Source: a virus
Length of the DNA stretch: 34,645 nucleotides
Direction: 5' to 3' (one strand)
IMG/VR virus record: IMGVR_UViG_3300023171_000320
Coordinates: 1-34,645 of that record
Numbering within the stretch: the stretch's first letter is position 1; every line of letters begins with the position of its first letter. The position numbers and the translations under genes are program-made. Shown here in pieces: positions 23,429 to 34,645 of this stretch. Below the pieces are notes generated by a model, which saw only the letters and a list, made by a program, of their open reading frames with translations, had not been told where the DNA came from and did not search any database.

Positions 23429-23923
23429 GCAGATCCCAAATTTAGAGCCGTTGCAATAATCGGTCACAACATCGTCGTTCGCTGGCGTCCATGAGCCAAA
23501 GTCCCGCGCTGACTCGATCACGTTCGCCCCATCGACGCCGAAATGTGCAAGCTGCCGCAGTTCCTGCCCGTCGATGGTGAAGTGCACGATCTTTCTACCG
23601 ACGCTGGGATCTGCGCCCGCTTTTCCCAGCACCACGAAATTGATCGTCTTGATCTCCCCCGCGACCGGGGGTTTACCGGTGACCATCGCTTTTCCGATCG
23701 CTAGCGCTTCGTCGCCCGCAGCTTTGATCAGCGCCCCGCTCCGCGGGCTCTCGCCGAAATCGATCTCCATGTTGAGGATAGGCGCGAAATAATCGGCGGT
23801 TCGAACCGACGCATGAGGCGCTGCCGTCGATGGTTCTACAGCTTGGCTACAGGCGCCAAGCGTCAGCGCGGCTAGGACGCCTGCAGTGAGCCGCGTCTCG
23901 CGCTTCCGATAGTTAATCGCCAT
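23417..23923 (-). CDS. Predicted lipoprotein coupled to the repressor (moron candidate)
   Basis: A 168-residue protein with a basic start (MAINYRKRETR), a hydrophobic signal (LTAGVLAALTLGA) and lipobox LGAC, acylated Cys at residue 25. The mature domain has blocks TINFVVLGKAGADP and KIVHFTIDGQELRQLAHFGVDG, which I do not recognise. Its ATG overlaps the repressor stop (TGATG), so it should be made whenever the repressor is made, i.e. in the lysogen. Position and targeting suggest superinfection exclusion or another surface change, as with small phage-encoded outer-membrane lipoproteins. That is inference only. The stop shares CTAG with the stop of D on the other strand. Confidence 0.75.
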   Translation of the reverse strand: MAINYRKRETRLTAGVLAALTLGACSQAVEPSTAAPHASVRTADYFAPILNMEIDFGESPRSGALIKAAGDEALAIGKAMVTGKPPVAGEIKTINFVVLGKAGADPSVGRKIVHFTIDGQELRQLAHFGVDGANVIESARDFGSWTPANDDVVTDYCNGSKFGICAGS

Positions 23924-24579
23924 CAGACCGGCTTCACGACACGCGTGATCCTGCCAATGATATTAATCTCGGAATGGTGCGCCGTATCCTCAGGTACGTC
24001 GCTGTTGTCCGACAGGATCGTCACCTTTTCGCCGCGCACACGCAGGCGTTTGATCATCGCCATGTCGCCTATAGTGAATGCCCAGATTAGGTCCTGGTCT
24101 TCGATCCGCCTTTCCGAACGATCGATCAGCACCATGTCGTTGTCATTGATCGTCGGCGCCATGGAGTCGCCCTTTCCTCTCGCCCAGGCGAGATGGGCTG
24201 CAGCGGTATGCGTTAGCTGATCAACCCACTGTTTCGGAAAGTGCAGCACCTCGACCTGTACCTGATCGTCGGCGAACGTGGCGCCCATCCCGTACGCCAT
24301 ATCGACGGATGCGATCTCGACCAGTTCAAGTTGATCAGCAATCTCGCGCTCACTTGGCGCTGGAACGGCGCCTTCGGCTGGATCATCTGTCTCGCCCGTC
24401 AGATACTCAGCAGTCGTTTTCAACACGCGCGCGATCTTGTGGAGATGCGACGAGCCGCCCGGATTGTTGCTGACGATCTTGGCAATCGCGCCCTGGGTTA
24501 CGGCGACCCGGCGAGCCAGCTCTGACTGCGTAAGCCCCTGTGCCTCCATCAGGCCCCGCACACGCTCGCTAAGAATCAT
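23923..24579 (-). CDS. CI/LexA-like prophage repressor (HTH plus S24 peptidase-like domain)
   Basis: A 218-residue protein. Residues 3-62 form an HTH_3 domain (LTQSELARRVAVTQGAIAKIV). The C-terminal half is the S24 fold: KGDSMAPTI with Ser139 and MAMIKRLRV with Lys177 as the catalytic dyad. It should hold the divergent early promoter off. I cannot see an Ala-Gly cleavage site in the linker; the segment in that place reads MAYGMGATF (94-102). RecA-triggered self-cleavage is therefore uncertain. There is no Shine-Dalgarno before ATG 24579. P2's own C repressor is much shorter, so this control module is of a different type. Confidence 0.9.
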   Translation of the reverse strand: MILSERVRGLMEAQGLTQSELARRVAVTQGAIAKIVSNNPGGSSHLHKIARVLKTTAEYLTGETDDPAEGAVPAPSEREIADQLELVEIASVDMAYGMGATFADDQVQVEVLHFPKQWVDQLTHTAAAHLAWARGKGDSMAPTINDNDMVLIDRSERRIEDQDLIWAFTIGDMAMIKRLRVRGEKVTILSDNSDVPEDTAHHSEINIIGRITRVVKPV

Positions 24580-26168: not shown

Positions 26169-28889
26169 ATGCGTTCAGACCTGCACCGAGATCTGCTGCT
26201 CCGCCTGAAGACCGACTTCGGTCTGCAGGTGAAGGGCACCTATCTGCGCAACGGCCGGTGCCCCGCGGAGCATGGCGGCTGCGGCAAGAAAGACGTCCTT
26301 TGGTCCAACGCCGAAAAGCCGTGGATCCTCCGCTGCGGACGCGAGGACAAATGCGGCGAGACCTTCGCCGTCAAATCGCTCTACCCCGAGATCTTCGACG
26401 ACTGGTCGAAGCGCCACGTCAAGACGCCCGAGGCCCCGAACGCCGCGGCCGACGCCTACCTGTCGCACGCCCGCGGCTTCGACCTGCTCGGCCTGCGCGG
26501 GTTCTACACGCAGGAATCATATCACGATCGCAAGCTCGACATCGGCTCGGCGACCGTCCGTTTCCCGCTCCCCGGCGGCACCTATTGGGAACGCCTGATC
26601 GACCAGCCCGGCCGGTTCGGGGACAAGAAGGCGAACTTCGCGTTCGGCGGCTCCTACAAGGGCGAATGGTGGTCGATGCTGCCGATCGAGACGCTCGCCG
26701 CGGCGGACTCGATCTGGCTGGTCGAGGGTATCTTCGACTCCATCGCCATGGTGCAGACCGGCAAGCAGGCCGCGGTCAGCCTCATGAGCTGCAACAACTA
26801 CCCGGCGAACGCCCTCGAGGCCCTGCGCCGTGCCGCGGCCGAGCTGGGGAAGAAGACGCCCAAGATCATCTTCGCGTTCGACGTCGGTAAGGCCGGCGTC
26901 AGCTACACCCGCAAGTTTGTGAAGCAGGCGCGCGAGGATGGCTGGATCGTCGGCGCCGCCCAGGTCCGTCCCGATGGCGAGGGCGAGAAGCGCGACTGGA
27001 ACGACCTCGCGCTGGCGGACGAGCTGAAGTCCGAGAACCTTGCCGACTACCTCTACAACGGCGACGTCACGATCGCGTCGGACGCCTCCGAAAAGGCGAT
27101 GCTGATCTACAAGCGCAACCGCTACGCGTCCTTCCCCTTAGTGTTCGGCGGGCGCCAGCTCTGGGCGACATTCTCGGTCGAGCGCATCCAGGCCGTCCAG
27201 CAGCAATGGATGGAGAGCGACGACCCCGAGTTCGCCGCCTTCAAGGAAATGGCGCCCCAGGACCGCTGGGATAAGGCCGCGGCCGAGGCGATCGACATCA
27301 CCGAACTCGCGAATTGCGTGTTCCGTACCCTGTATTTCCAGAAGGATGCCGCGCTCGAGGAAGGCGCCTACTTCCTCCGCGTCGACTTCCCGTCCGACCG
27401 GCCGACCGTAAAGGCGACCTTCTCGGGCTCGGCTGTCACCACCAGCGGCGAGTTCACCAAGCGCCTGGCATCCGTCGCGCCTGGCGCACTGTGGACCGGG
27501 TCGCAGCATCAGATCGCCCGCCTGATGCAGATGCAGTGGGGCAAGATCCGCACGGTCGAGGCGATCCAGCACACCGGCTATTCGATCGACCACGACGCCT
27601 ACATCTTCGGCGACATCGCCGTGCATCGCGGTCGCGTCTACAATCCGAACGAGGATGATTATTTCGTCCTAGGCAAGCGCTCGGTCAAACTGCGCACGAC
27701 CGACCGCCTGCTGCGCATCACCTACGACGCAGACAAGCTCGACCTGTCATGGGTCAAGGATCTCGTCACCGCGTATCGCGCCAAGGGCGTCGTTGTCCTC
27801 GCCTTCTGGGTGCTGGCGCTGTTCGCCGAGCAGATCCGCAACATGCAGGACTCGCTGGCGTTCCTCGAGGCGACCGGCCTACCCGGCACCGGCAAATCGA
27901 CCCTCCTCGAATTCCTGTGGAAGGTGTCGGGCCGCTCGAATTACGAGGGGTTCGATCCGACCAAGGCGACGTCGGCCGGCATCGCGCGCACCATGGGGCA
28001 GGTCGGCAATCTGCCCGTCGTGCTGATCGAGGGCGACCGCAGCAAGGATAGCCCGCACGCCAAGCGGTTCGAATGGGACGAGCTGAAGACGGCCTATAAC
28101 GGTCGCGCCGTCCGCACGCGCGCCATTGCGAACGGCGGCATGGAGACGTTCGAACCGCCTTTCCGCGGTGCAATCATCATCGCGCAGAACGACGTCGTCG
28201 AGGGCTCGCCGGCGATCACCGAGCGCATTCTCGGCATCCACTTCGACAAGTCGCATTTCAGCGAGGCGGGCAAGACAGCGGCCGAGCGTCTGTCGGCCGT
28301 GCCGATGGAGGATATCAGCGGCTTCCCGGTGCATATCGTCCGGCGCGAGAAAGAGATCCTCGAGCGGTACCGTGCCGCCTTCGCCCATCACGAAGCGGCG
28401 ATGCTGAAGCATCCCGGCATCCGCAACGGCCGTCTCGCCAAAAACCACGCCCAGCTCGCCGCGATGCTCGACGCCATGCGCATCGTCGTGCGGACGCTGT
28501 CTGACGCCGACGTCGCCGCGGCGCATGCCGCGATCGTCGACATGCTCGAGCAGCGCCAGAAGGCGGTCGAGACGGATCACCCGCATGTCGAATGGTTCTG
28601 GGAGCGCGTAGACCACATGCGCGCGCTGGAAGGACCATCGGTCGAGCGGCCGATCAACCATAGCCGCACGCCCGACGTCCTCGCGATCAACCTGGTCCAG
28701 TTCGAGCAGCGCTGCGGCGAACTCAACCAGCGGATGCCGTGCGCAGCCAACGAGCTGAAGCGCCTCCTCCGGTCCTCGAAGGCCCGCAAGTTCGAAGCCG
28801 TGAAGACGGTCAACTCGGTCACCGACAAGTCGGTCGCCTGCTGGGTCTTCCGCAATCCCGACCACCTCTCCCCAACCCCCAAGAGCTGA
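26169..28889 (+). CDS. Primase-helicase-type replication protein (zinc ribbon, TOPRIM, P-loop ATPase)
   Basis: A 906-residue protein. An N-terminal zinc ribbon uses Cys31, Cys38, Cys56 and Cys62. A TOPRIM-like domain has WLVEGIFDS (Glu186) and IIFAFDVG (Asp238). The Walker A motif GLPGTGKST lies at 570-578 (Lys576), with VVLIEGD as a probable Walker B near 620 and IIIAQND as a sensor-like segment near 677. This is the P4-alpha/DUF927-like arrangement for unwinding and priming at an origin. P2 instead uses the nicking protein A, so this phage probably does not replicate by P2-type rolling circle. It begins after a 99-bp spacer and is the largest early gene. Confidence 0.85.
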   Translation: MRSDLHRDLLLRLKTDFGLQVKGTYLRNGRCPAEHGGCGKKDVLWSNAEKPWILRCGREDKCGETFAVKSLYPEIFDDWSKRHVKTPEAPNAAADAYLSHARGFDLLGLRGFYTQESYHDRKLDIGSATVRFPLPGGTYWERLIDQPGRFGDKKANFAFGGSYKGEWWSMLPIETLAAADSIWLVEGIFDSIAMVQTGKQAAVSLMSCNNYPANALEALRRAAAELGKKTPKIIFAFDVGKAGVSYTRKFVKQAREDGWIVGAAQVRPDGEGEKRDWNDLALADELKSENLADYLYNGDVTIASDASEKAMLIYKRNRYASFPLVFGGRQLWATFSVERIQAVQQQWMESDDPEFAAFKEMAPQDRWDKAAAEAIDITELANCVFRTLYFQKDAALEEGAYFLRVDFPSDRPTVKATFSGSAVTTSGEFTKRLASVAPGALWTGSQHQIARLMQMQWGKIRTVEAIQHTGYSIDHDAYIFGDIAVHRGRVYNPNEDDYFVLGKRSVKLRTTDRLLRITYDADKLDLSWVKDLVTAYRAKGVVVLAFWVLALFAEQIRNMQDSLAFLEATGLPGTGKSTLLEFLWKVSGRSNYEGFDPTKATSAGIARTMGQVGNLPVVLIEGDRSKDSPHAKRFEWDELKTAYNGRAVRTRAIANGGMETFEPPFRGAIIIAQNDVVEGSPAITERILGIHFDKSHFSEAGKTAAERLSAVPMEDISGFPVHIVRREKEILERYRAAFAHHEAAMLKHPGIRNGRLAKNHAQLAAMLDAMRIVVRTLSDADVAAAHAAIVDMLEQRQKAVETDHPHVEWFWERVDHMRALEGPSVERPINHSRTPDVLAINLVQFEQRCGELNQRMPCAANELKRLLRSSKARKFEAVKTVNSVTDKSVACWVFRNPDHLSPTPKS

Positions 28890-29320: not shown

Positions 29321-29499
29321 TGGCCAGCGCCCCGATCCACCCCTTCGCGTGTGACTGCGAAGCCTGCGATCCCGACCAGGACAACGGCTTCCAGACCTTC
29401 ATGGCGCAGGTCACTGGCCTCGCTGCCGGCGCCGTCATCGTCGGCCTGATCGAAGCCGCCCGCGCGATCCTCCCCCTGATCGAAAGGCTCGCGTCATGA
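29317..29499 (+). CDS. Small protein with one membrane-like segment
   Basis: A 60-residue protein with an N-terminal Cys-containing part (FACDCEACDPDQD) and a hydrophobic C-terminal segment (about residues 32-56). Unrecognised. Both ends overlap neighbouring genes by four bases (ATGA), which supports it as a real gene in the chain. Confidence 0.5.
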   Translation: MMASAPIHPFACDCEACDPDQDNGFQTFMAQVTGLAAGAVIVGLIEAARAILPLIERLAS

Positions 29500-29855
29500 A
29501 CATGCTGACGATGCGCACCATTCGCGACGAGGGCGGCCTGGTCCGCCACATGCCGATGCCGTTCGTACCCGCGAAGCCCGGCAAGAAGGCGCGGGTCGTG
29601 CCGGACCCGATCCAGACCAACGGCGAAGCTGCAGCGGAAGAGCTGCGTCTCCTGGTCGAGCGCGCCGAGCGCATCGTGGAGGAGATCAAGGGCGCGCAGG
29701 ATGATCTGAAGGAGGTCATCGCCGAGGCCAAGGGCCGGGGATACGACGGCCGGGCTTTCCGGAAAATCATGGCGATCCGGCTCAAGAAAAAGGAGGAGTT
29801 CCTTCAGGAGGAGGGCGTCCTCGAGACGTATCTCCAAGCGCTGGGGATGCTGTAA
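29496..29855 (+). CDS. GapR-like (DUF2312) DNA-binding protein
   Basis: A 119-residue protein. Residues 44-119 match the DUF2312/GapR family: EELRLLVERAERIVEEIKGA, DDLKEVIAEAKGRGYDGRAF, then RKIMAIRLKKKEEF and a QALGM end. Chromosomal GapR of Caulobacter is about 89 residues, binds overtwisted DNA ahead of RNA and DNA polymerases, and assists topoisomerases. The 43-residue N-terminal extension (Pro/Lys-rich, FVPAKPGKKARVV) is additional. In the phage it may manage supercoiling during replication or compete with the host protein. It is fully embedded in the coupled early operon. Confidence 0.85.
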   Translation: MNMLTMRTIRDEGGLVRHMPMPFVPAKPGKKARVVPDPIQTNGEAAAEELRLLVERAERIVEEIKGAQDDLKEVIAEAKGRGYDGRAFRKIMAIRLKKKEEFLQEEGVLETYLQALGML

Positions 29856-30489: not shown

Positions 30490-30689
30490 TGTGGGCCGCA
30501 CACCGCGCCGCCCAGATGGTGGAGATTGAACAGCTTGAGCAGCTGCAGCGCGAACGCGCGCTGACCAGCGCGGAGAGCGCCCGGCTAGAGAAGCTTCTCT
30601 ACAACGAGAAGCAACGCGCTCGCCGCCTGCGGGACCAGATCCGCGCAACCCGCGCGAAGCTGCGCAAGCTCGAGGCGATGGCAGCATGA
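30489..30689 (+). CDS. Small coiled-coil protein
   Basis: A 66-residue, almost entirely charged helical protein (MVEIEQLEQLQRERALTSAE, then EKQRARRLRDQIRATRAKLR) with heptad-like leucines. ATG 30489 shares a base with the preceding stop (TGATG). Unrecognised; probably an oligomeric or adaptor protein. Confidence 0.5.
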   Translation: MWAAHRAAQMVEIEQLEQLQRERALTSAESARLEKLLYNEKQRARRLRDQIRATRAKLRKLEAMAA

Positions 30690-31306
30690 GCATGCCCGAT
30701 ATCGAGCCCGGCTATCCATTGCGGTATCCGAATGGTCGCCCCCGCACCGCCACGCGCAAACCCGCGCTATTCCGAAACGCCGGCAGCCACATGACCCTGA
30801 CCACGTCGCGCAAGCGGCTGCGCGACCAGATCGCACTGATGACGCGCACCGGTAAGGACTGGCGCGTCACCAACATGGTGCTGTCGACGAACATCCGCTT
30901 CACCGCCTCCGGCTCTCGCGATCAGAATGTCAGTCGACGCGATCCCGAGGATCCGGGCGTCGCCTTCTACTTCGATCTCGACGGCCGATCACATGTCCTC
31001 GCGTGCGATCGCTGGGACACGGTGCCCGACAACATCACCGCGATCGCCGCCCATATCGAGGCCCTTCGCGGTCAGGAGCGTTGGGGCGTCGCGGATTTGC
31101 GTCAGGCGTTCGCAGGGCACATCGCTCTGCCCGCGCCCGATCCTTGGTGGGCCGTCCTCGGCGTCGACCGGCGCGCGGACGCTGCGACGATCGACAGCGC
31201 TTACCGCGCCCTCGCCAAGGCCGCACATCCGAACGCCGGCGGCGAGCGTGCCGTGTGGGATCGTCTCAGCGCGGCCTATCAGCAGGCGAAGGCGGCGCAG
31301 GCTTAA
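30686..31306 (+). CDS. J-domain protein with HPN in place of HPD
   Basis: A 206-residue protein. The N-terminal 140 residues are an unknown domain (SRKRLRDQIALMTRTGKDWR; GVAFYFDLDGRSHVLACDRW). The C-terminal 60 residues form a J domain: PWWAVLGVDRRADAATIDSA, then YRALAKAAHPNAGG. The conserved His-Pro-Asp is His181-Pro182-Asn183. The Asp of HPD is generally needed to stimulate DnaK ATPase, so this may be a J-like protein that binds but does not activate. Related phage proteins with an intact HPD occur, as far as I recall. Host chaperone capture for replication is a possible role. It is coupled to both neighbours. Confidence 0.8.
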   Translation: MSMPDIEPGYPLRYPNGRPRTATRKPALFRNAGSHMTLTTSRKRLRDQIALMTRTGKDWRVTNMVLSTNIRFTASGSRDQNVSRRDPEDPGVAFYFDLDGRSHVLACDRWDTVPDNITAIAAHIEALRGQERWGVADLRQAFAGHIALPAPDPWWAVLGVDRRADAATIDSAYRALAKAAHPNAGGERAVWDRLSAAYQQAKAAQA

Positions 31307-32295
31307 TGCCGATCAGCCCGGAAAACTTAGAGCGCTACCCGCCCGACTGGCCCGCGATAAGCCTTCGCATCCGCAACGAGCGCGCGGGCGGGCGTTGCGA
31401 ATGCCAGGGTGAGTGCGGGCATGATCATGCCGGTCGCTGCCCGGAACGCGACGGCGAGCGCCACACGATAACTGGCTCGCCCGTCGTGTTGACGGTCGGC
31501 CACCTGTATCACGATCCCGAGCGCTCGGCGGACGACGAGCTGCGCGCTTGGTGCCAGCGCTGCCACCTCGCCTACGATCGCGATCATCATTCTGCGAACG
31601 TGCGCCGCACGATGTCGCTGCGCCGCATCGAGGGGGCGCGCACTTTCGAGCTTTTCGAGGGCGATCTTGGCGACCGGACTCGTTTACCGGTGCCGCTGCC
31701 GGCGGTCGCGCCGCTACCGGCGCAGCAACCGGCCGCTTGGCCGTTCGGTGCGCTGCAGCCGGGTCGCTATGGCGTGATCCTCGCTGATCCACCCTGGCGC
31801 TTCCTTAACCGGACGTCAGCCGGCGAGGTCAAGAACCCGATCGCGCACTATCCCTGCATGACGATCGCCGAACTGGCGGCGCTGCCGGTGTCGCGCCTGG
31901 CCGCGCCCGATTGCGCGCTGGTCATGTGGGCGACCGCTCCACTACTCGACCGCGCGATCGAGCTGCTGCGCGCGTGGGGCTTCACGTTCAAGAGCGCCGG
32001 CGCATGGGCGAAACAGTCGTCGACCGGCCAGAAATGGACGTTCGGCACCGGCTACATCTTCCGGTCTGCGGCCGAGTTCTACGTCGTCGGCACGATCGGC
32101 AAGCCCCGCGTCCAGTCGCGCTCGATACGCAACCTGATCGCGGCACCAGTGCGCGAACACAGCCGCAAGCCCGACCAGATGCACCAGGACGTCGAGGCGC
32201 TCTACGCTGGTCCCTATGCCGAGCTGTTCAGCCGCCAGCGCCGGCCGGGCTGGGAAACGTGGGGCAACGACATCGACAGGTTCGCGGCACCGTGA
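31306..32295 (+). CDS. Fusion of HNH-endonuclease-like domain and MT-A70 adenine methyltransferase
   Basis: A 329-residue protein. Residues 1-100 resemble the small HNH-type proteins of alphaproteobacteria and their phages: YPPDWPAISLRIRNERAG, Cys31/33/37, VLTVGHLYHDP with His66 and His69, and LRAWCQRCHLAYD with Cys83, Cys86 and His87. A Pro/Ala-rich linker (about 125-148) leads to an MT-A70 domain with YGVILADPPWRF (Asp161-Pro-Pro-Trp), CALVMWATAPLLDRAIELL and a C-terminal WETWGND. The second domain should make N6-methyladenine. Whether the first still cuts DNA is unknown. It lies in the early operon before xis and int. Both halves are in one uninterrupted frame. Confidence 0.82.
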   Translation: MPISPENLERYPPDWPAISLRIRNERAGGRCECQGECGHDHAGRCPERDGERHTITGSPVVLTVGHLYHDPERSADDELRAWCQRCHLAYDRDHHSANVRRTMSLRRIEGARTFELFEGDLGDRTRLPVPLPAVAPLPAQQPAAWPFGALQPGRYGVILADPPWRFLNRTSAGEVKNPIAHYPCMTIAELAALPVSRLAAPDCALVMWATAPLLDRAIELLRAWGFTFKSAGAWAKQSSTGQKWTFGTGYIFRSAAEFYVVGTIGKPRVQSRSIRNLIAAPVREHSRKPDQMHQDVEALYAGPYAELFSRQRRPGWETWGNDIDRFAAP

Positions 32296-32579
32296 CCGAC
32301 CTGCTCACCCCGGCCGAAGCGGCCGTGCGGATCCATGTCTGCACGAAGACCTTGCGCCGACTCCGCGTCGACGGGCACATCCGCTATGTCGCCATCACCG
32401 ATCGCAAGATTCGATACCGGCCGGAGGACTGCGACGAGTTCGTTGCCGCCCGCGCCCGGAAGGCCCCTGAATGTCCGTCTACAAGCGCAAAACCTCGCCC
32501 TACTGGCACTTCGACTTCGTCTGGGAAGGTCGTCGCTTTTTCGGCTCGACCGGCTGCAAGGGCAAGCGCGAGGCGCTGA
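32292..32579 (+). CDS. Excisionase-like HTH protein
   Basis: A 95-residue protein from a GTG overlapping the methyltransferase stop. Residues 1-55 form a MerR/excisionase-type winged helix (LLTPAEAAVRIHVCTKTLRR, then DGHIRYVAITDRKIRYRPED). The remaining 35 residues are Ser/Thr/Ala-rich and are read through the first 109 bases of the integrase gene in another frame. The HTH and the place directly before int support a directionality role. The tail may be dispensable. No earlier stop exists in this frame. Confidence 0.78.
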   Translation: MTDLLTPAEAAVRIHVCTKTLRRLRVDGHIRYVAITDRKIRYRPEDCDEFVAARARKAPECPSTSAKPRPTGTSTSSGKVVAFSARPAARASARR

Positions 32580-33559
32580 AGCACGAAGAGTTGGAGCGGA
32601 CGAAGGCGCGTAATGGCGGTGTCTCGCGCCCGCCTATCACGCTCGACGAAGCATGCGGCCTCTATCAGGACAAGGTCGAAGAGCTGCCCTCCTGGGTCGA
32701 TACGAAGCGAACGCTGCGGACCCTGATTGAGGGCCTGAACAAGACCGATCTGTTGGCGTCGATCAACCAGCGCGATCTGCTCGCCTTGGTCGCTCGTCGG
32801 CGTGCCGGCCGCGTCAACGCATCAGTCAATCGCGAGATCGAGGTATGGCGAGCCGTTTGGCGCTGGGCGGCGAAGGCGCGATACGACGTCGGCGAGATGC
32901 CCGACTGGGGCGCCCTGATGCTGAAGGTCAGCCGCACCGATCCGCGCGAGCTAAGCGCGGCCGAGGAAGCATCGCTCTTCACCGAGATCCGGCCCGACCT
33001 CTATGACTTTTGCGAGTTCGCCCTGAAAACGGGGTGGCGGAAGGGCGAGGTCATGGGCCTGCGCTGGTCGGACGTCGACCTTGGCGCCCGCACCGCCACA
33101 ACCAAGATTAAGGGCGGCGACGTCGTGAAGCGTCCGCTCACCCAAGACATGCTGGTGATCATCGCCAACCAGAAGAAGGTCGGCCCATTTGTCTTCACCT
33201 ATGTCGCGGCACGGACGAAGCCCGAGTTCACGGACAAGCTCGGCCGGAAACAGCCGGCGCGCAAGAAGGGCGATCACTACCCGATGACAGCCCAGGTGCT
33301 GCGCAAGCCATGGGTGACGGCAAAGAAGGCGGCCGAGATCGAAGGCTTCCGCTTCCATGATCTGCGCCACACCCGCGGCACGCGGATCCTGCGTGCGACC
33401 GGCAACCTGAAAGCCGCCCAGCGCGCGCTGGCGCATCGTTCGATCAAGACGACCCTGCGTTACGCCCACGCGACCGACGACGACGTGCGCGACGCGCTAG
33501 ATGCGAGCGAGTCCCGACCTATTCCCGACCTGACGGGTGCAAAGGCTCAAAAAAGCTAG
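32471..33559 (+). CDS. int: Tyrosine-recombinase integrase
   Basis: A 362-residue protein. It has an N-terminal arm-binding-type start (SVYKRKTSPYWHFDFVWEGR), a core-binding SAM-like domain (about 70-170) and a catalytic domain with TGWRKGE (Arg190), HDLRHT (His296, Arg299), LAHRS (His322) and YAHA (nucleophile Tyr331). It should recombine attP with a tRNA-Val gene; the att region starts within 25 bp of its stop. It is the last gene of the early rightward operon and overlaps the excisionase-like gene by 109 nt, so both come from the same transcript. No separate promoter is obvious. Confidence 0.95.
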   Translation: MSVYKRKTSPYWHFDFVWEGRRFFGSTGCKGKREALKHEELERTKARNGGVSRPPITLDEACGLYQDKVEELPSWVDTKRTLRTLIEGLNKTDLLASINQRDLLALVARRRAGRVNASVNREIEVWRAVWRWAAKARYDVGEMPDWGALMLKVSRTDPRELSAAEEASLFTEIRPDLYDFCEFALKTGWRKGEVMGLRWSDVDLGARTATTKIKGGDVVKRPLTQDMLVIIANQKKVGPFVFTYVAARTKPEFTDKLGRKQPARKKGDHYPMTAQVLRKPWVTAKKAAEIEGFRFHDLRHTRGTRILRATGNLKAAQRALAHRSIKTTLRYAHATDDDVRDALDASESRPIPDLTGAKAQKS

Positions 33560-33580
33560 GATTTCTGCGGCTCACAGCCA

Positions 33581-33606
33581 TCTCGGTACACGCGGTGTAA
33601 ACGAGA
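33581..33606. other. Putative integrase core site at the prophage-chromosome junction (attR)
   Basis: An interrupted palindrome, TCTCG-g-TACAC-gcg-GTGTA-aa-CGAGA, spans the point where tRNA identity ends (about 33593). The right half is the tRNA anticodon arm and the left half is phage DNA. Such paired core-binding sites around a short overlap are expected for tyrosine integrases. The partner attL would be left of the window. Confidence 0.65.
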
Positions 33607-33632
33607 CGCTCTACCAACTGAGCTAATCGCCC
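33593..33632 (-). tRNA. tRNA-Val(TAC) 5' remnant at the attachment site
   Basis: On the minus strand the segment begins GGGCGATTAGCTCAGTTGGT (acceptor strand and D arm) and continues through the anticodon stem 5' strand TCTCG and the loop TTTACAC, with anticodon TAC at 33599-33597. Expected alphaproteobacterial tRNA-Val continues CCGAGA...; here it diverges after CCG and no T arm (TTCGA) follows. It is therefore a 5' fragment cut in the anticodon arm by integration. The functional gene is presumably restored at the other prophage end. Confidence 0.75.
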
Positions 33633-33703: not shown

Positions 33704-34645
33704 TCAGTTCGCCGCCGACTCCGCGCGCCGCACCGCCGCCATATAGCCGTGCATCGATTCGCTCGCGCGGATCGACAGCGCCATGTACGCGCGGCGGCGG
33801 TCGAGCGGGTCGGGGCGGCGGTCGAGCCAGCCGGCGTCGGACATCCGGCCGATCCAGCGCAACGCAGTCGTCGGCGCGACCGCTGCGGCGATGCAGAGGC
33901 TGGACACCGACACCTGCGCGCCCTCCAGTTCGGCCGCGTAGAGGTCGAGCAGCATGTCCCAGCCGGGATCCTCGAAATAGCCGGGACCGAAGAACTGGTC
34001 GCGTGCACGCCGGGCGCGGATCATGCGGCGGATATCCCCCGCGGTCGGAGTGGGCATCGGCGGGGCGCCGTACGTGTTGGTACGGTCGCCAACGATCGGC
34101 GGATGCTCGTCGCGATCCTTCTCGTCGCGCGCCAGCCGCGCCAGCACGTCGGCGATCCGCGCGACTTCGGCGTTCAGCCGCTCGAACCGTGCCGAATCGC
34201 CTTCGCGACCGACATCGGCGACTCCGGCGGGCACGCGCGCGCGTTCGGCGGCGATCGTCAGCGCGGCGACGCACGCGGCGATGTCCGGGTCGACCAGCAG
34301 TTCGGTCACGCCGCCAAGCGACACGGATGCGACAAGGTCGATCTGGTCCGGCGTCATCGCGATCACAACCGCCGCGGCGCAATCGGCTGCCCAGTCGACG
34401 ATATCGGGCAGCGTCGCGCGCAGGATCGCGTCATCGACGTCCGCCACCTCGATCGCCACGACCTGCGGGACCGCGAACGGCGCGCGCGGATGCTCCCAGT
34501 CGAGCCGTATCGGTACGCGGCGGCCGATGATCCCGATCGCCACCGCCAGCCGGTCGGGGGCGTCCGCCGCCGCGACCAGTACGGTCGTCGGGCCTGCATC
34601 ATAGCTGTAGTTGCCGGGGTCGCCCGCGCCTTCGGTGTCGTTCAT
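33704..34645 (-). CDS. MarR-family winged-helix regulator (chromosomal)
   Basis: A protein of 313 residues from an ATG exactly at the window edge; a start further upstream cannot be excluded. The C-terminal 110 residues carry a MarR-type winged helix (YFEDPGWDMLLDLYAAELEG, VSSLCIAAAVAPTTALRWIG, DAGWLDRRPDPLDRRRAYMA). The first 150 residues look like an alpha/beta receiver-type or nucleotide-binding-like domain (VLVAAADAPDRLAVAIGIIG), separated by a helical linker. I take it as a host gene outside the prophage since it lies beyond the tRNA junction and is oppositely directed. The regulated genes are unknown. Confidence 0.8.
   Translation of the reverse strand: MNDTEGAGDPGNYSYDAGPTTVLVAAADAPDRLAVAIGIIGRRVPIRLDWEHPRAPFAVPQVVAIEVADVDDAILRATLPDIVDWAADCAAAVVIAMTPDQIDLVASVSLGGVTELLVDPDIAACVAALTIAAERARVPAGVADVGREGDSARFERLNAEVARIADVLARLARDEKDRDEHPPIVGDRTNTYGAPPMPTPTAGDIRRMIRARRARDQFFGPGYFEDPGWDMLLDLYAAELEGAQVSVSSLCIAAAVAPTTALRWIGRMSDAGWLDRRPDPLDRRRAYMALSIRASESMHGYMAAVRRAESAAN

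Follow-up and report, generated by a model that had tools for sequence, protein, structure and literature searches.

An MT-A70 methyltransferase fused in frame to an HNH-like zinc domain in temperate phages of Sphingomonas-type bacteria

A temperate phage of Sphingomonas-type bacteria encodes a single polypeptide that joins an HNH-like zinc domain to an MT-A70 methyltransferase, and the same fusion is found in related proviruses and bacterial genomes. On balance, we think that the protein is an orphan phage N6-adenine methyltransferase with an in-frame, HNH-derived zinc domain that would bind or target DNA, and that it is made from the early operon and would methylate the phage DNA against restriction. 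For the protein encoded by the window (the whole stretch of DNA that was analysed, the viral record IMGVR_UViG_3300023171_000320 with 34,645 bases), a cut-and-protect system is less likely than an enzyme that marks DNA and has its own module for DNA binding.

The fused gene and its distribution

The gene content of the window is that of a temperate phage (tail sheath, tape measure, terminase small subunit, head genes, CI-like repressor, primase, excisionase-like gene and integrase; see Table 1 for the features relevant here). The fused gene is the third-last gene of an early operon that consists of primase, GapR-like gene, J-like gene, fusion, xis and int. The J-like gene upstream ends within the sequence TAATG, in which its stop and the start of the fused gene overlap, and the two genes are apparently translationally coupled. 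Just past the integrase there is a tRNA-like remnant (33542-33632, minus strand; Rfam 19.9 bits, below the gathering score) that is probably the attachment site, followed by a MarR-like gene (33704-34645, minus strand) that is probably host DNA.

Table 1. Features of the window that are relevant to the fused gene
Feature	Position	Strand	Evidence and remarks
Fused gene, 329 aa: HNH-like zinc domain, Pro/Ala-rich linker and MT-A70 methyltransferase	31306..32295	+	open frame, 329 codons; profile matches
N-terminal HNH-like domain, residues 1-112	31306..31641	+	Cys 31, 33, 37, 45, 83, 86 (zinc-type); H66 and H87 kept; G65 and E78 versus A65 and N78 of relatives
Flexible linker, residues 113-150	31642..31755	+	pLDDT mostly < 50; fastest-evolving part
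MT-A70 catalytic domain, residues 151-329	31756..32292	+	DPPW 161-164; K288, R310 and N321 invariant across all fused copies
Upstream gene, J-domain-like segment at its end	30686..31306	+	PF00226 weak, just under cut-off; PHROG 9210, E 1.9e-45
Excisionase-like gene	32292..32579	+	start overlaps fusion stop (GTGA)
Tyrosine integrase	32471..33559	+	
Phage primase, first of conserved early block	26169..28889	+	homologue upstream of every fused relative
GapR-like DNA-binding protein, phage-borne	29496..29855	+	PF10073, E 1e-20; homologue upstream of every fused relative
CI-like repressor	23923..24579	-	divergent from early operon that ends with fusion, xis and int

An earlier note on this DNA had described an uninterrupted frame with H66, H69, C83, C86, H87 and a DPPW motif at residue 161, and had proposed that an HNH-like domain and an MT-A70 methyltransferase are joined in one polypeptide. 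All of these residues are present in the frame and two profiles score independently on the two halves: PHROG 1571 'HNH endonuclease' matches residues 5-105 (E 2e-33) and Pfam MT-A70 (PF05063) matches residues 155-321 (E 2.5e-24, 86.6 bits versus a cut-off of 23.9).

Database searches identified the same full-length fusion, with 68-83% identity, in 15 further contigs, of which 10 are viral and 5 belong to Sphingomonas-type genomes. Removal of duplicates left 13 distinct fused sequences besides that of the window, 14 in all (one of these, L025, is cut by the contig end and the rest of the gene is on the next contig). All 13 are from Sphingomonas genomes or similar proviruses and are part of the same early operon. 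With this recurrence in other contigs and genomes, the fusion is neither chance nor a join of two genes in a single assembly, and an assembly artefact is ruled out. Synonymous change is much more frequent than non-synonymous change in both halves (median pairwise dN/dS of 0.23 for the N domain and 0.25 for the methyltransferase; 0.45 for the linker): both halves are under purifying selection and neither is drifting.

Both domains are present in 36 open reading frames among 187 loci, all of which belong to the Sphingomonas-type set or are repeats of it. Two of 398 genomes of the same family have the fusion, and a sample of 398 genomes from the phylum has the HNH-bearing form only in the Sphingomonas genome that was used as centre. 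No phage or plasmid record covers 80% of the fused protein, and a literature search found no description of a fusion between HNH and MT-A70. Candidates with long frames and larger N-terminal regions (L208, L210, L211, G407, G415 and G561) have no HNH domain; the fold search also gave a long HNH protein, gp10 of Leptospira phage LE4, whose tail has no methylase motif. PHROG 359 'DNA methyltransferase' is matched by the window protein in full length (positions 7-298 of 329), and the N domain of one subset of fused proteins (set B, see below) matches, on its own, the N-terminal positions 4-80 of this family (E 2.5e-4). The architecture is therefore probably already present in PHROG 359: judged from the profile match, some of its members probably share the fusion and are filed as methyltransferase only, without comment.

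The HNH-like domain and its nuclease site

AlphaFold2 was run with a 65-row alignment, which gave a full-length model with a mean pLDDT of 83, and with a 13-sequence alignment, in which the N half only was modelled. The N domain is predicted to have two strands (63-66 and 79-82) followed by a helix (84-111), which is the beta-beta-alpha order known from HNH nucleases; pLDDT is about 80-93 through residue 90 and falls after about residue 90. H66 ends the first strand, position 78 is located just before the second strand and H87 is in the helix, while the linker is largely unstructured from about residue 118 to 141. In the fold search, predicted viral proteins annotated as HNH match the N domain with E-values of 1e-9 and 6e-7. 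Foldseek searches of the PDB, done with the model that has the confident N half, returned no solved HNH match below 0.001, and with the better full-length model the best 50 matches are methyltransferases only.

The one sequence match to a solved HNH enzyme is a weak profile match (E 0.15) to GVE2 HNHE (PDB 5H0M). It covers the HNH motif, where D-H, N and C-x-x-C-H of GVE2 HNHE align with G/A65-H66, position 78 and C83-C86-H87, respectively. GVE2 HNHE has an Asp before the first His as well as the Asn, both of which are missing in the window protein, and it has no methyltransferase. A predicted structure that lacks a beta-beta-alpha metal site in residues 1-100 would have spoken against the proposal of the earlier note. 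The beta-beta-alpha topology is present in the AlphaFold2 prediction, but the HNH metal site is incomplete in the window's copy, with E78, G65 and changes at L67 and M82.

The fused proteins fall into two sets, clade A (7 sequences, including the one of the window) and set B (7 sequences, including L022 from Sphingomonas pituitosa). A reference of 64 distinct stand-alone N domains has 50 columns that are at least 90% conserved. Clade A has changed six of these columns (R8, R10, A65, L67, N78 and M82), four of them within the beta-beta-alpha motif, and set B has changed none. C31, C33, C37, C45, C83, C86, H66, H87, D91 and H95 are kept in both sets. Position 78, the Asn of the HNH motif, is Asn in all set B proteins and in 62 of the 64 stand-alone domains; it is Glu in the window and Glu or Asp in all seven proteins of clade A. 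The residue before the first His is Asp or His in canonical HNH enzymes. Here, this metal ligand position (65) is nearly family-wide Ala or Gly, with Gly in the window and clade A and Ala in 63 of the 64 stand-alone domains; an Ala in place of the metal ligand is already a feature of the stand-alone family and says little about the fusion in particular. Neither the first His, H66 (probably the general base), nor the final His, H87, varies among the fused proteins. In comparison with the phage HNH proteins of PHROG 1571 (from mycobacteriophage, Gordonia, Rhodobacter and other phages), the window protein has the same cysteine pattern, the same two His residues and about 50-67% identity; unlike it, these proteins are stand-alone with about 100-130 amino acids, and they keep N78, A65 and M82, where the window has E78, G65 and W82.

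In GVE2 HNHE, replacement of the equivalent Asn by Ala caused the loss of 60% of the nicking and abolished Zn-dependent nicking, and in EheA, another HNH enzyme, Asn substitutions removed all activity (PMC5304195). Judged from its residues, the window protein has probably lost its nuclease activity or retained a weak one. The pattern of clade A is what would be expected from relaxed catalysis with a zinc scaffold that is still useful. Residual nuclease activity may be present in clade A, as both His residues are retained, and the invariance of H66 and H87 would be odd for a fully dead site, unless these residues now have a structural role or a role in zinc binding. Within clade A (window versus L001-L006), dN/dS is about 0.10-0.19 for the N domain and 0.15-0.30 for the methyltransferase, showing that the altered N domain of this clade is constrained as much as the methyltransferase.

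The earlier note had suggested, as the first of two readings, a self-protecting or restriction-modification-like nuclease: the HNH half would nick or cut unmodified host or rival DNA and the methyltransferase would protect the phage DNA, all within one chain. We consider such an active bifunctional enzyme, comparable to fused restriction-modification enzymes of the type IIG/IIC kind, unlikely. The predicted beta-beta-alpha topology, the invariant H66 and H87 in all fused copies and the complete H-N-H residues that set B has in common with the stand-alone family are consistent with it, but the HNH Asn and neighbouring motif residues are lost in all seven proteins of the window's clade, which have Gly at the metal ligand position, and no recognition domain was found. 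Even in set B, ordinary HNH chemistry is doubtful because of the nearly family-wide Ala at the metal ligand position. Moreover, a cut-and-protect pairing is not the rule among the stand-alone N-domain genes: a recognisable methyltransferase neighbour is present at about 4 of 46 loci (raw count; L015, L016 and L045 by Pfam and L032 by motif only), and there is one prophage record besides with such a gene near a methyltransferase. For the window, with Glu at the position of the HNH Asn, Gly before the first His and the changes at L67 and M82, a self-protecting nuclease fits less well than the alternative reading of the same note, a DNA-binding zinc domain. For L007-L010, L021 and L023, which are sister fused proteins, a nuclease is easier to defend than for the window. 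It is also conceivable, at rather long odds, that the atypical HNH fold, with Ala or Gly for the metal ligand, nicks DNA that lacks its own m6A mark in set B and has been converted to a pure DNA-targeting module in the window's clade; this would be a restriction-modification-like protein on its way to an orphan methylase.

The methyltransferase half and its likely role

MT-A70 enzymes include the m6A writers METTL3 and MTA1. In Foldseek, the C-terminal domain of the window protein matches METTL3 with an E-value of 3.5e-15 and Tetrahymena MTA1 with an E-value of 5e-14; its closest solved relatives by sequence are MTA1 chains (E 4.7e-17), and the fold-search listing labels MTA1c as a DNA methyltransferase complex. 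The domain shares with the MT-A70 family (PF05063; METTL3, Tetrahymena MTA1 and phage MunI-like methylases) the fold, the DPPW motif and an alignment over the whole domain; the difference is the HNH-like zinc domain that the window protein has in the same chain. D161, P163 and W164 do not vary in 13 fused sequences. The window protein, with its intact motif and fold, is a putative SAM-dependent m6A-forming enzyme. Two fused relatives, L002 and L006, have DFPW instead of DPPW at the residues equivalent to 161-164.

There is no third domain that could serve in target recognition: in Pfam searches and in the AlphaFold2 model, residues 113-150 are a mostly disordered linker and MT-A70 accounts for the remainder. 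Enzymes of this family are small, have no recognition domain, and in the eukaryotic METTL3 and MTA1 the contacts to the nucleic acid come from separate partner subunits. In the window protein, the zinc domain is the obvious candidate for such contacts. Most of the other phage MT-A70 relatives that were checked are stand-alone proteins of about 175-240 amino acids, and a few have N-terminal regions of the ParB- or HTH-type.

We suggest the following model. An MT-A70 methyltransferase acquired a small HNH-derived zinc domain at its N-terminus, in frame, and this domain, on its flexible linker, would bind or position DNA for the methyltransferase. In the window's clade, the HNH nuclease site decayed, presumably with loss of cleavage, and the zinc scaffold was kept. 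As the protein is made from the early operon, its likeliest role would be to methylate the phage's own DNA during early replication, and the phage could in this way escape host restriction. DNA rather than RNA is the presumed substrate, with a presumed recognition motif. If this is correct, the phage family may hold its nucleic acid with a single small zinc domain of HNH origin within the methyltransferase chain, where METTL3 and MTA1 use partner subunits. The close fused copies with and without the HNH Asn offer a natural comparison of whether an HNH fold within a methylase cuts, targets, or does both.

The operon is also the basis for a different role, to which we assign a slim chance: the m6A could control promoters of the phage or of its host (examples would be lysogeny, excision and alphaproteobacterial cell-cycle sites) instead of protecting from restriction. 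The fused gene is immediately followed by xis and int, and the operon that they share also encodes a phage GapR-like protein; this placement is the evidence for a regulatory methylase. However, xis and int are exchanged among relatives, and several fused loci have no homologue of the window's integrase in the stretch examined.

Stand-alone relatives and the origin of the fusion

Phages commonly have the N domain as a gene of its own, with 400 matching stretches in the viral collection (80 of which were kept) and 164 phage records. In the tree of N domains, the fused sequences form a group (99/93) in which a single stand-alone gene, L032, is nested; the branch of clade A has strong support (100/99). 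Judged from this tree, the simplest account is either a single fusion with a single later loss of the methyltransferase half, or local recombination. The stand-alone HNH gene of L032 (L032:4001-5046) is followed by a different methylase-like gene with an NPPF motif and no Pfam match, not by MT-A70.

Stand-alone MT-A70 genes with up to 70% identity to the C half begin almost exactly at the boundary of the fused domain; such relatives are present in other phages (L118-L122). At one locus (L045:3126-4384), an MT-A70 gene shares 10 bases with the start of a gene that encodes a stand-alone member of this HNH family. This pair is a plausible picture of the unfused state, though the order is reversed.

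The same pair would also suit a captured homing nuclease: a homing gene of the HNH type, next to or within an MT-A70 gene, would have become fused in frame and would now be decaying, with minor function or none. Phage methylase genes are known to have HNH homing elements within them and next to them (the ShiLan element; PMC11855218), a Klebsiella phage has a homing-endonuclease-type HNH gene just upstream of MT-A70, and the motif has decayed in clade A. Still, we regard this origin as improbable: the domain is N-terminal, in frame and under purifying selection, with all zinc cysteines kept across the 14 sequences, and there is no sign of recent mobility, as the fused copies group together save for the one nested stand-alone gene. 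The ShiLan-type HNH insertions in mycobacteriophage methylases are the nearest described case, as a single gene locus of a temperate phage has both HNH and methylase there too, but differ in kind: the ShiLan insert is out of frame, mid-gene and actively homing, whereas the fusion of the window is in frame, N-terminal and vertically conserved (PMC11855218). In Rhodobacter capsulatus phages, for example RcSwan (OP009286.1), a gene of the HNH family and an MT-A70 gene are both present and separate, at about 27.8 and 39.7 kb.
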